A DNA stretch of 64,000 nt from Prochlorococcus sp. AG-355-P07 (GTDB lineage: Bacteria; Cyanobacteriota; Cyanobacteriia; PCC-6307; Cyanobiaceae), in assembly GCA_003280575.1 (NCBI GenBank), contig QCEN01000006.1, positions 1-64,000 of the forward strand, read 5' to 3'. The number at the start of each line of letters is the position of its first letter. Position 1 is the first letter of the stretch. Of this stretch, positions 34,195 to 56,931 are shown one piece after another. The notes below the pieces were generated by a model, which was not told the origin of the DNA, did no database searches, and saw nothing but the letters and a program-made list of their open reading frames with translations. The position numbers and the translations under genes are program-made.

Positions 34195-34713
34195 ATGCTA
34201 TTGTCTTTTAATGCTAAACAGAAACTAAAGCTTTCTGTAACAAGAAATAAAGAATATCTTTCTAAGTATCTTTTAGAAGAAGAAAGAGTTGTGGGGGCAA
34301 TGCTAGACTCCAAAAAATTATTACCTGAAGGGGAGGGTAAGTACAAGTATACAGTAACAAGTTTTAGGGTTTTCCAGTTAGATATTAATCCTGTTGTTTC
34401 AATAGCAGTAGAAAATAAAGATGGAATTTTAAAAATGAGTGCTCTTGAAAGTACATTGGATGGTTTGGGGATGATAGATGATTTCAATCTTGTTTTGAAA
34501 GCGAATTTGGAAGCAACTGATATTGGATTAGAAGGGGAGGCGCTTCTAGGGGTATCTGTAAGCCAACCCCCTCTATTAAGGCTAGTACCGAAAAAAATTT
34601 TAGAATCTACTGGTCATTCGGTATTAAATGGGATTTTATTAGGAATAAAGACAAGAGTTCAACAGCAATTAGTTAAAGATTTTTTGGAATGGTGTGAATT
34701 AAATAAGATTTGA
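34195..34713 (+). CDS. DUF1997 family protein
   Basis: A 172-residue cyanobacterial/plastid-type protein. An N-terminal Lys/Glu-rich helix ([20 protein letters not shown]) leads to a long beta-rich lipid-carrier-like region ([40 protein letters not shown]) and a C-terminal helix [11 protein letters not shown]. Function unknown; confined mostly to oxygenic phototrophs. Its last 15 bases overlap the end of rnhB on the opposite strand. Confidence 0.78.
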
Positions 34714-35316
34714 TTTCTTTAAAAAACTTTTCCTATGTAGATTAGTTATTCCATTTTCTTTAATACTTGAAAGATGCTCTTTAGTACCATATCCTTTATT
34801 TTTAAATATTAAGTATCCTGAGTATTTTTTTTCTAAACTTTCCATTAGATTATCGCGAGATACTTTTGCAACTATACTCGCTGAAGATATCGAGGTATAT
34901 ATTGAGTCTCCTGATATTATATTTTTTTGAATTCCTTTCCATGGTCTTAACAATAATGGTCCATCAATTAATAGTTCAGATGGTTTCTCTTTTAATTTTT
35001 TTAAAGCTCTAATCATTGAGAGTTCAGTTGCAACTCTGATTCCGAGGTCATCTATTTCTCTAACAGAGGATTGTCCAATTCCATAATCTGTAGAAAGTAA
35101 TAAAATTTTTCGAAAAAGGAAGGTTCTTTTTTTTGGAGTTAATTTTTTACTATCTATTACTCCAAATTTTTTTAAACTTAATTTATTTTTTTTAGACAAT
35201 ACTACAACTGCCGAGAAAACTGGACCAAAAATTGCTCCCCTTCCAACTTCATCCATTCCAACTTCGTAAACTTTATTCAATACTTGCCGATGATCTTCTT
35301 CTTTTTTTTCTTGCAT
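34699..35316 (-). CDS. rnhB: Ribonuclease HII
   Basis: A 205-residue protein removing RNA from RNA-DNA hybrids. Catalytic acidic residues appear in [21 protein letters not shown] and near the SIVAKVSRD segment. The ATG start overlaps the 3' end of rne by 44 bases. A TTG four codons before YEVGMDEVG, overlapping the rne stop, is an alternative start that would remove most of the overlap. Confidence 0.93.
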
Positions 35317-37096
35317 TGTTTATCTCATCTGTTAATTCAATTTCATCCTTCTGATCTAAAGCTACAACTTCTTCATTCTCAATAGTATTGTTTATCGCTT
35401 CATTATTGGAATTTGTATCTTCAATATTAATGGCTATCTCTGTAATTTCACTAGATTTTAAGGTTTTTTTGACTCGTTTTCCTGTTGTTGTTTTTTTATT
35501 ATCTAAAGTTATTCCTTTTTCCTCACTATTGTCCTTCAAACTCACAAAATTATTGCTAGTTAGATATTCTTTCCCTAACTTTATTAGTGGATTAATACCT
35601 AAGTGACTGAAAACAATTTTTTCATCATTAGTAAGATCAACGGTTACTATATTTTTTACCTTCGAATTTAATGTATTCAAATCATCATTATCATTTTCTT
35701 TTTTAATAGAAGAATCCTCTTTACTTATATTTTTGGCGTTAAGTAATTCCTTTTCATCTATTTTTTCTTGCTTGTCAATTGATTTAGAAGAAATTATATC
35801 TACAGATTTAGTATTATTTGATTGAGAAGGCCTTTCTTCAATATTTTTTAGTTTCAGATTAGAAATTCCAAAATTCAATTGACTGTCTACATGGCCTGTA
35901 CCATTGCAGTAGGTGCATTTTTTACCGAATAATTCATATATATTTTGACCTTGTCTTTTCCTTGTTAACTCAACTAAACCTAATTCAGTAAGCTGAGCTA
36001 TCTGAGGCCTAGCAGAATCATCTTTTATTGCTGAAGTAAAATGTTCAAGTAACTGGAATTGATCTCGTCTCGATTCCATATCAATAAAATCTACTACGAC
36101 AACTCCGCCAATATTTCTTAATTTCATTTGTCTTGATATTTCAACAGCTGCTTCGCAATTCGTCCACAAAACAGTTTGTCTTGAGTTAGCGGATCTTGTA
36201 AATGATCCAGAGTTTACATCAATTACTGTTAGAGCTTCAGTTGGTTCAATAATTATGTAGCCTCCTGAAGGAAGATCTACCCTTGGTTGAAGAGCTTTTT
36301 GAATTGTTTTATTAATTTCATATTTTTCTAAAATATTTTGGTTTAAATCGTTATCATGAAATTCAATATCCACATTAGATTCATAATTTGTCAAGAAATC
36401 TTTTGCCCTCTCCACTGACAATTTACTATCAATAATTACGGTTTTAGTGGATGATTTAATATGATCTCTTAAAATCTTAAGAGAGAAATCATCATCTCTT
36501 TTTATTAAATTTGGTGGATTAAAGGACTCAGAAACTTGCAAGATATTATCCCATTCTTGAATTAAATTTTCTAAATCTTCAATAAGTAGTTCTTCTTTAA
36601 TCTTTTCTGCTTCTGTTCTAAATAGTAAACCTGTGCTAGTTGGTTTAATTAAAACCCCTAGAGCTTTTAAACGGTTTCGTTCTATTTCTGTATTGATTTT
36701 TCTGGAAATATTTAATCCCTGGCCATATGGTTGAAATATTAAGTACTTTCCAGGTATTGAAATACTCCCGGTAAGTCTAGGACCTTTAGATCCTGTAGGC
36801 TCCTTAATTACCTGTACAAGAACTTTTTGTTTCGGTTCTAGTAGTTCAGTTATTCCTGATGTTCCCTTCTTGAGTTTCAATGGACCTAAATCTGATACAT
36901 GAATGAATCCATTTTTGTCACTCTCACCAATATTTATGAAAGCGGCATCAATGCCAGGGAGAACATTTTCAACTGTTCCTAAAAAAATATCACCAATTTG
37001 ATATTGGCCTTGTGCGACGATTAGTTCATCAACTCGATCATTTGTGAGTAGTGCTGCAATTCGAGACTCCTCAGCGATGATAATTTGCTGAGACAT
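35273..37096 (-). CDS. rne: Ribonuclease E/G
   Basis: A 607-residue endoribonuclease, main initiator of mRNA decay. The S1 domain is at about residues 35-115 ([20 protein letters not shown]). The catalytic Mg2+ acids are in [10 protein letters not shown] and VVVDFIDM. The Zn-link [10 protein letters not shown] has the two Cys. The C-terminal third is acidic/disordered. It ends KKRRRSSAS, matching the Arg-rich C-terminal peptide that in cyanobacteria binds polynucleotide phosphorylase, so the degradosome tail seems present. Long leader with an inverted repeat (separate entry). Confidence 0.96.
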
Positions 37097-37120
37097 ATAG
37101 TTGATTCTGAATGATTTGGA

Positions 37121-37265
37121 TTTTGAAAATCGTCTAAAGTAAAGAATTAGATTTTTATCTTTGAATAAAGCAATTTTGTATATCTAGTATTATTTACTTT
37201 TTAAAATTAATTAATTAATAGTGATTGAATTCGACTATTTATAAATCTTTAAACGATTTTCGAAA
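37121..37265 (-). promoter_or_regulatory. Long-range inverted repeat in the rne leader
   Basis: 37125-37139 (GAAAATCGTCTAAAG) pairs with 37247-37261 (CTTTAAACGATTTTC). In the rne transcript this is 15 contiguous pairs with one G-U, plus three more beyond a mismatch (37121-37123 with 37263-37265). The arms are 107 bases apart. One lies 25 bases before the rne ATG, the other near the likely 5' end. RNase E autoregulation through its own leader is known in bacteria; this fold is a candidate element. Confidence 0.5.
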
Positions 37266-37283
37266 CAATTTGAATTGAATTTA

Positions 37284-37317
37284 TAGTTATAATTATTTCT
37301 AAAATTAATTATAACTA
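37284..37317. promoter_or_regulatory. Perfect 12-bp palindrome with facing TATAAT elements between rne and dapL
   Basis: TAGTTATAATTA (37284-37295) and its exact complement TAATTATAACTA (37306-37317) flank a 10-base centre. Each arm contains TATAAT: on the plus strand at 37288-37293 pointing to dapL, and on the minus strand at 37313-37308 pointing to rne. This fits a symmetric bidirectional promoter or an overlapping operator. Confidence 0.45.
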
Positions 37318-37392
37318 AGATAATATTAACATCTAATTACCACTAAAGCACGTTAATCAATTATTCTAATATTGGTGAGATTTCTTTCTAAA

Positions 37393-40909: not shown

Positions 40910-40981
40910 TGCCGATAATTGGAATTGAACCAACGACCTACTGTTTACGAGACAGTTGCTCTACCGCTGAGCTATACCGGC
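40910..40981 (-). tRNA. trnT-CGU: tRNA-Thr (anticodon CGU)
   Basis: A full cloverleaf: acceptor GCCGGTA/TATCGGC with one G-U, D-arm GCTC/GAGC, anticodon stem ACTGT/ACAGT around loop CTCGTAA, and T-arm GTTGG/CCAAT around TTCAATT. Anticodon CGU (complement at 40947-40949) reads ACG. The discriminator base is A and no CCA is encoded. The nearby DNA shows no integrase or attachment repeat. Confidence 0.97.

Positions 40982-51694: not shown

Positions 51695-56931
<5,237 letters not shown>

Follow-up and report, generated by a model that had tools for sequence, protein, structure and literature searches.

The rne leader of a high-light Prochlorococcus is a structured RNA that lacks an Rfam match and carries a well-supported hairpin at its presumed 5' end

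The element in the 5' untranslated region (UTR) of the enterobacterial rne message is the Rfam family rne5 (RF00040). Messages can also be shielded by a 5'-terminal protective stem, as reportedly described by Bouvet and Belasco in 1992 and by Arnold in 1998, with E. coli ompA as an example, and both RNase E and RNase J prefer 5' ends that are accessible and monophosphorylated. For Prochlorococcus MED4 the key paper is that of Stazic et al. (Genetics, 2016), which may already discuss a structure or the cleavage site in the rne leader. In one of the most abundant phototrophs of the ocean it is RNase E that sets the pace of mRNA turnover, and a phage raises its expression by shifting the transcription start site.

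The rne-II element of Pseudomonas is RF01756 (PMC2864571). In E. coli the primary cut in the rne message is insensitive to RppH, yet autoregulation needs the 5' sensor (PMC3997798), and RNase J is present in cyanobacteria (PMC10989914). In MED4, rne is transcribed from two starts, at 220 and 200 nt upstream of its ATG, and the 5' UTR holds an autoregulatory cleavage site (PMC9692554). The same source states that RNase E feeds back on its own message through this UTR, as the preliminary description of the present locus had assumed. A third MED4 start, TSS3, is induced by phage and lies at the G (+3) of the start codon; the resulting message is without the autoregulatory cleavage site, and the phage in this manner bypasses the autofeedback of the 5' UTR (PMC9692554). 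A structure in the rne leader is not named in the accessible text of three other papers of the open-licence literature (PMC6778093, PMC2518516 and PMC7368042).

The window, a stretch of 64,000 nt from a contig of high-light (HL) type Prochlorococcus, the genus to which the nearest named loci belong, carries on its minus strand a frame of 607 amino acids (35273..37096) that has relatives in other genomes and whose translation reads as RNase E. This is the gene that had been proposed, and matches to it are found in 221 of the 266 genomes of the genus. It is overlapped downstream by a short frame on the same strand (35316..34699), read from its translation as RNase HII, and a divergent frame on the opposite strand, aminotransferase-like by its translation, starts at 37372. 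A perfect 13-nt inverted repeat, TCTCACCAATATT, links the coding region of rne (36922-36934) with the start of the divergent gene (37368-37380) and is probably a chance event. For the comparison within the HL clade, 187 loci from overlapping collections, which do not cover all 221 genomes, were fetched and reduced to 139 distinct leaders.

The start positions were carried over from MED4 by aligning one of these leaders (L209), taken as that of MED4, with the window. By this alignment the equivalents of the MED4 starts (PMC9692554) should lie on the minus strand at 37318 for TSS1 (-220), at 37299 for TSS2 (-200) and at 37094 for the phage-induced TSS3, the G of the ATG. The distal start is preceded by what is likely to be its extended -10 element, TGTTAATAT (37323..37331, minus strand), and a loose pattern TG(C/T)TAnnnT, which matches the distal -10 of MED4, is found before rne in 85 of 90 leaders of other genera. 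Further upstream, at approximately -250 to -235, TTAGTGGTGATT is complementary in many HL genomes to a leader segment, AATCACTATTAA, at -134 to -119. As TTAGTGGTGATT is located upstream of the starts and outside the transcript, it is perhaps a DNA element.

At the gathering score the sole Rfam match in the window is a tRNA at 40910-40981, with none in the rne leader. The rne leaders of ten relatives likewise gave no match at the gathering score, and the region 37060-37372 gave none at E<=5. As a whole, the leader is a structured RNA for which Rfam gives no match, and the presumed 5' end of the distal message bears a well-supported hairpin, termed P0, that the preliminary description had left out. 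The 12-nt arms of P0 lie on the minus strand at 37306..37317 (TAGTTATAATTA, the 5' arm, recognised from an inverted repeat, predicted folds and substitution counts) and at 37284..37295 (TAATTATAACTA, the 3' arm, recognised from the alignment and substitution counts). The hairpin would be the first thing transcribed from a distal start of the MED4 type, and the proximal start would lie within its loop. In MED4 itself transcription from the distal start begins with the opening base of the P0 stem, base +1 is paired when the leader is folded from TSS1, and the published TSS1 (PMC9692554) together with the predicted fold places a stem no more than a few nt away from the 5' end that was mapped. By homology to MED4, P0 of the window is presumed to occupy the 5' terminus of the distal message. 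Folds of 137 of the 139 HL leaders gave the first 8 nt from the TSS1 position a mean unpaired probability of 0.16, with 136 of the 137 below 0.4, and gave the first 8 nt from the TSS2 position one of 0.74, with 107 of the 137 above 0.6.

P0 could be placed in 137 distinct HL leaders and could not be placed in two divergent members of the genus, L215 and L216. Within this set the arms form on average 11.5 of the 12 pairs by sense rules and 9.7 by antisense rules. Eight of the nine inner pairs vary and yet only 5 of 1233 cells are unpaired; in the window, one G-C pair of the relatives has become A-U through a change on both sides. Inferred transitions from Watson-Crick pairs kept the pairing 58 times and broke it 7 times. 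On a second tree, for which the stems were left out, the ratio becomes 66:7, and for the inner pairs the two trees gave 39:1 and 44:1. Double changes kept the pairing in 4-5 cases and broke it in about 0.6. The excess of T>C in the leader runs opposite to this trend: over -187 to -1 of the HL leader there are 264 inferred T>C events and 131 A>G events. This ratio of roughly 2:1 on the sense strand, found over the region downstream of P0 (37097-37283), looks as if the leader avoids G.

When all substitutions, transversions included, are counted, the share that keeps P0 paired is 0.76-0.78. The 76 candidate stems read as sense RNA have a median of 0.43-0.45, and the 100 read as antisense have one of 0.40, with 0.58 as the best. 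P0 is outranked solely by a five-column match between the 5' arm of P0 and rne codons 6-7 (0.86-0.88). The transition ratio alone is not unique to P0, because comparable values are attained by short stems selected in the scans, an antisense stem of five columns giving 27:1. In a pair count over 32 rows P0 is paired in 97.4% of cells and slid registers in at most 57%; the same count holds only 3 double-change cells, equal to one of the slid registers, and the covariation score is reached by 8 of 500 shuffles. In the HL clade P0 hence shows an excess of pair-keeping changes on the transcribed strand, with a double-change count over 32 rows that is weak when taken alone. Comparison of the leaders therefore gives strong evolutionary support to P0 as a structure of the leader, unlike the long-range stem P1 that is described below.

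The retention of G-U in P0 on the rne strand points most simply to RNA of that strand as the molecule under selection. An alternative is that P0 and the arms of P1 act as DNA, with P0 as an operator over a -10 element and start and the 3' arm of P1 within the promoter of TSS3. The 5' arm of P0 does overlap a probable TATAAT-like -10 element of TSS2, so that part of its conservation may belong to the promoter, and the best conserved 18-nt stretches upstream of rne also lie in the promoter. Moreover, the 3' arm of P1 sits where, judged from the spacing, the -35 element of TSS3 would be expected, and a phage MarR protein is active at the rne locus of MED4 (PMC9692554, accessible text), although the same source places the strongest binding of pMarR downstream of TSS3. 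What makes a DNA element unlikely is that nearly all changes in P0 of the HL clade leave a G-U pair on the rne strand, where the other strand is left with A-C, and a DNA-binding site has no reason to retain G-U.

A comparable arrangement is found outside the HL clade. In low-light Prochlorococcus and marine Synechococcus a segment just past the -10-like element can pair with another some 40-55 nt further on, and the stem shows many compensatory changes such as GGACG/CGTCC, GAACG/CGTTC and GGATATG/CATATCC. In these leaders the 5' end was guessed from the -10-like pattern, and a covarying stem near this presumed 5' end thus appears to recur in both groups. Alignment A1 comprises 37 of the 48 low-light and Synechococcus leaders, aligned by sequence, on which a drawing of P0 and the two hairpins that follow was made by eye. 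In this drawing 13 of the 16 pairs have changes on both sides, seven of them in P0, and there are 36 double-change cells compared with 16 in shuffles, a value reached in none of 500 shuffles, which ignore relatedness. The drawing is paired in 81% of cells and slid versions of it in 18-50%; by helix, the figure is 71% for P0, 46% for its inner extension and 92-94% for the two hairpins.

A pairing test that is free of the drawing used 5' segments whose spacing from the -10 element was held constant. The leader's own downstream segment was better than swapped ones (0 of 5000 permutations), with an advantage in 22 of 31 genus groups and none in the other 9. The antisense strand is nearly as strong (z -8.1 vs -9.1), so that across the family the test fails to separate the two strands, a point in favour of DNA elements. 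A covariance model of the low-light and Synechococcus leader, searched with filters that lose weak matches, found 61 of 392 genomes of the family with one match each, namely 36 of the 37 seed genomes and 25 others, spread over 14 of 40 genera. All 44 matches for which the place of rne is known are found 146-171 nt upstream of its ATG. No HL genome is among the matches listed; the HL leader differs too strongly in sequence. RNAalifold gave no consensus when applied to all 30 non-HL leaders. The low-light and Synechococcus leader is conserved enough to be detected by a covariance model and would lend itself to description as an RNA family. Past P0, the non-HL leaders L221-L250 share a number of hairpin-like blocks, GG(C/T)CTT..AGAGG(C/T)C, GGAG..CTCC, GACC..GGTC and GCAG..CTGC, and a further block, GAGCC..GGCTC, just before the ATG.

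The stem from which this analysis started, P1, was seen in the inverted-repeat search and in predicted folds. Its arms of 19 nt lie on the minus strand at 37247..37265 (5' arm) and 37121..37139 (3' arm, with its outer edge 24 nt before the ATG), are 89% complementary and stand 107 nt apart. On the rne strand they form 15 contiguous pairs with one G-U (37247-37261 with 37125-37139), as had been noted at the outset, followed by a C-A mismatch and three more pairs. Two start points were used for folding, and the stem appears in both the minimum-energy and the centroid structure from each (z -3.6 and -4.1). When the 206-nt leader was shuffled 3000 times with its dinucleotides preserved, 5 of the shuffles reached the score of P1 and 20 held any stem of at least 15 pairs. 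Over the window 4 of 2552 tiles reached the score; apart from the tile of P1 these are three that overlap one another at a single other site. As the search spanned 64 kb, P1 is only moderately unusual on these chance counts alone. The other site, the only place among the tiles with a stem as strong, is at 56281-56347 (minus strand), where a 14-pair stem, GTAATGTAGGTGCT/AGCACCTGCATTAC, lies antisense within the frame 55027..56931. In the predicted ensembles of the 139 distinct HL leaders, P1 is dominant in 113 and all but missing from 16. The z-score of the whole-leader fold has a mean of -1.64 across the HL clade and is below -2 in 44 of the 139; global fold stability is no proof of structure, because these scores are only mildly negative.

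The preliminary description took the outer arm of P1 for the 5' end of the message and supposed that the stem brings this end close to the start codon. Neither point survives the transfer of the MED4 starts, as the ends at 37318 and 37299 would precede the arm by 53 and 34 nt, and with 34-53 nt of leader before it P1 fails to bring the 5' end near the ATG. If the MED4 starts hold here, both arms are inside the transcribed leader of the two long messages, neither of which begins below 37247, and outside the phage-induced one.

In 138 HL leaders that could be placed on both arms, P1 forms a mean of 16.2 of 18 pairs and at least 14 of 18 in 133 of them, and pairs 1-17 are unpaired in 171 of 2346 cells. 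Complementarity was thus retained in most of the HL clade, which agrees with the original proposal. For 30 leaders representing 21 other genera the three strongest stems were listed, and none of these has the P1 sequence. That P1 is itself the functional sensor, a long-range stem bound by or displayed to RNase E, was the original proposal. It has in its favour the strong predicted fold, arms more conserved than the loop between them (identities of 0.92 and 0.90 vs 0.82), a 3' arm held near -43 in 112 of the 138 leaders whilst the distance of the 5' arm varies, and stems of 23-30 pairs with bulges in the divergent leaders L202, L211, L213 and L214. However, the linker before the arms is just as conserved (0.90), and of the 19 leaders that were drawn, five (L201, L203, L212, L215 and L216) have P1 either weak or lost.

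The substitutions in P1 show no clear excess of pair-keeping changes. Transitions from Watson-Crick pairs in P1 kept and broke the pairing 18 and 24 times (p 0.44), and 23 and 26 times on the tree built without the stems (p 0.78), although the excess of T>C in the leader by itself makes pair-breaking likelier in P1 in both counts, so that the transition ratio does not speak clearly in either direction. With all substitutions counted the keep share is 0.32-0.37, below the median given above for the 76 candidate sense stems. A scan of all columns for covariation, with nulls simulated on the tree, found no significant pair and none better than E of about 5, and its top pairs look phylogenetic. 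The 32-row count is ambiguous: P1 has 4 double-change cells and a covariation score above that of all 500 shuffles, but registers slid by +2 and +3 also have 4. Pairing between the two P1 arms of one leader is slightly stronger than between swapped arms (1 of 5000 permutations, with a z on the antisense strand of only -1.4), yet MED4-like 5' arms reach -17.5 kcal/mol with 3' arms taken from the main HL group and -15.1 kcal/mol with their own. A lineage-specific fit of the P1 arms was looked for by arm swaps between MED4-like leaders and the main HL group, and none was found. The conservation of P1 appears to be mostly one of sequence, the evolutionary signal of the leader is carried by P0, and the evidence that these alignments give for P1 as a selected stem is weak. 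A role for P1 as the sensor is accordingly doubtful. It is most likely a secondary feature that encloses an AU-rich region, and cutting sites may be displayed by it.

P1 might also be a site for RNase III, in which case RNase III would process the leader in place of RNase E. By duplex prediction the stem has 13-30 pairs, with 19 in the window, a length near that of RNase III substrates. Genes for RNase III are carried by cyanobacteria (PMC10989914, accessible text). Such a role is nevertheless very improbable, given that P1 shows no clear constraint specific to pairing, that its helix is interrupted in the MED4 group and that the MED4 literature names autofeedback by RNase E.

The reading that we favour, with a probability of roughly 55%, is that P0 seals the 5' end of the TSS1 message, which leaves RNase E with internal entry only and makes the leader a sensor of RNase E dose. 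The sealing, the dose sensing and the roles suggested for P1 and P3 are our inferences. In this scheme P0 would close the 5' end of the message from the distal start. The sealed end would block both the removal of pyrophosphate and the sensing of a 5' monophosphate by RNase E, and would equally block the 5' exonuclease RNase J. With its 5' end sealed, the decay of the message would therefore depend on internal entry, and is envisaged to start by direct access of RNase E to single-stranded AU-rich sites within the leader. When RNase E is plentiful, it would cut the leader and expose a monophosphorylated end, upon which the message would be lost. The leader would in this way report the dose of the enzyme.

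A further hairpin, P3 (CTCAGC..GCTGAG), is predicted by folds and codon counts over rne codons 2-9 (37070..37092, minus strand). It can form in 131 of 140 distinct HL sequences, in which codon 3 is CAG in 136 and codon 9 is GAG in all 140; as background, eight large frames from the window use CAG at 20% and GAG at 22%. Elsewhere in HL rne, conserved Gln and Glu positions mostly take the codon ending in A, with codons 95, 122 and 162 as exceptions. The five inner pairs of P3 can form in only 2 of 90 non-HL leaders, and its variants are few and give no covariation. Such codon constraint is not unique to P3, because codon choice at rne codons 16-29 is even more uniform, being nearly invariant (0.98-0.99) among 72 distinct HL sequences and providing the top windows of the first 180 codons. 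The 5' arm of P0 (37306-37317) is also complementary to the loop of P3 at codons 5-7, with a keep share of 0.73-0.88 over 5-6 columns, and represents a possible alternative pairing. The rare codon ATC is kept at rne codons 6 and 7 in 119 and 113 of the 140 sequences, compared with 11%.

As TSS3 of MED4 is 2 nt before P3, the phage-induced message would also begin with a stem. A tentative extension of the favoured reading is that the choice of start around terminal hairpins sets the lifetime of the rne message, with the TSS1 message sealed by P0, the TSS2 message open and the TSS3 message sealed again by P3, a hairpin kept through the rare codons CAG and GAG at positions 3 and 9 in HL hosts. 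We hold this to be rather unlikely as it stands. If true, one simple rule, by which start choice seals or opens the 5' end, would join the self-control of RNase E with its bypass by phage.

The rne 5' UTR of Synechocystis 6803 is likewise cyanobacterial, is cleaved by RNase E and is proposed to mediate self-regulation; it differs in that its U-rich cleavage site is more than 200 nt from the start, and a terminal stem is not named in the accessible text of PMC10989929. The leader described here resembles rne5 and rne-II in being a structured leader of an RNase E gene for which feedback on RNase E dose is proposed. It differs from them in lineage and gives no match to their covariance models, and its best-supported structure is at the presumed 5' terminus and is not an internal binding hairpin. 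With protective stems of the ompA type it shares a 5' end held in base pairs, on a message for which the main nuclease is one that senses 5' ends. Unlike these, the predicted P0 of Prochlorococcus is placed on the message of RNase E itself, where the use of alternative starts would remove or replace it.
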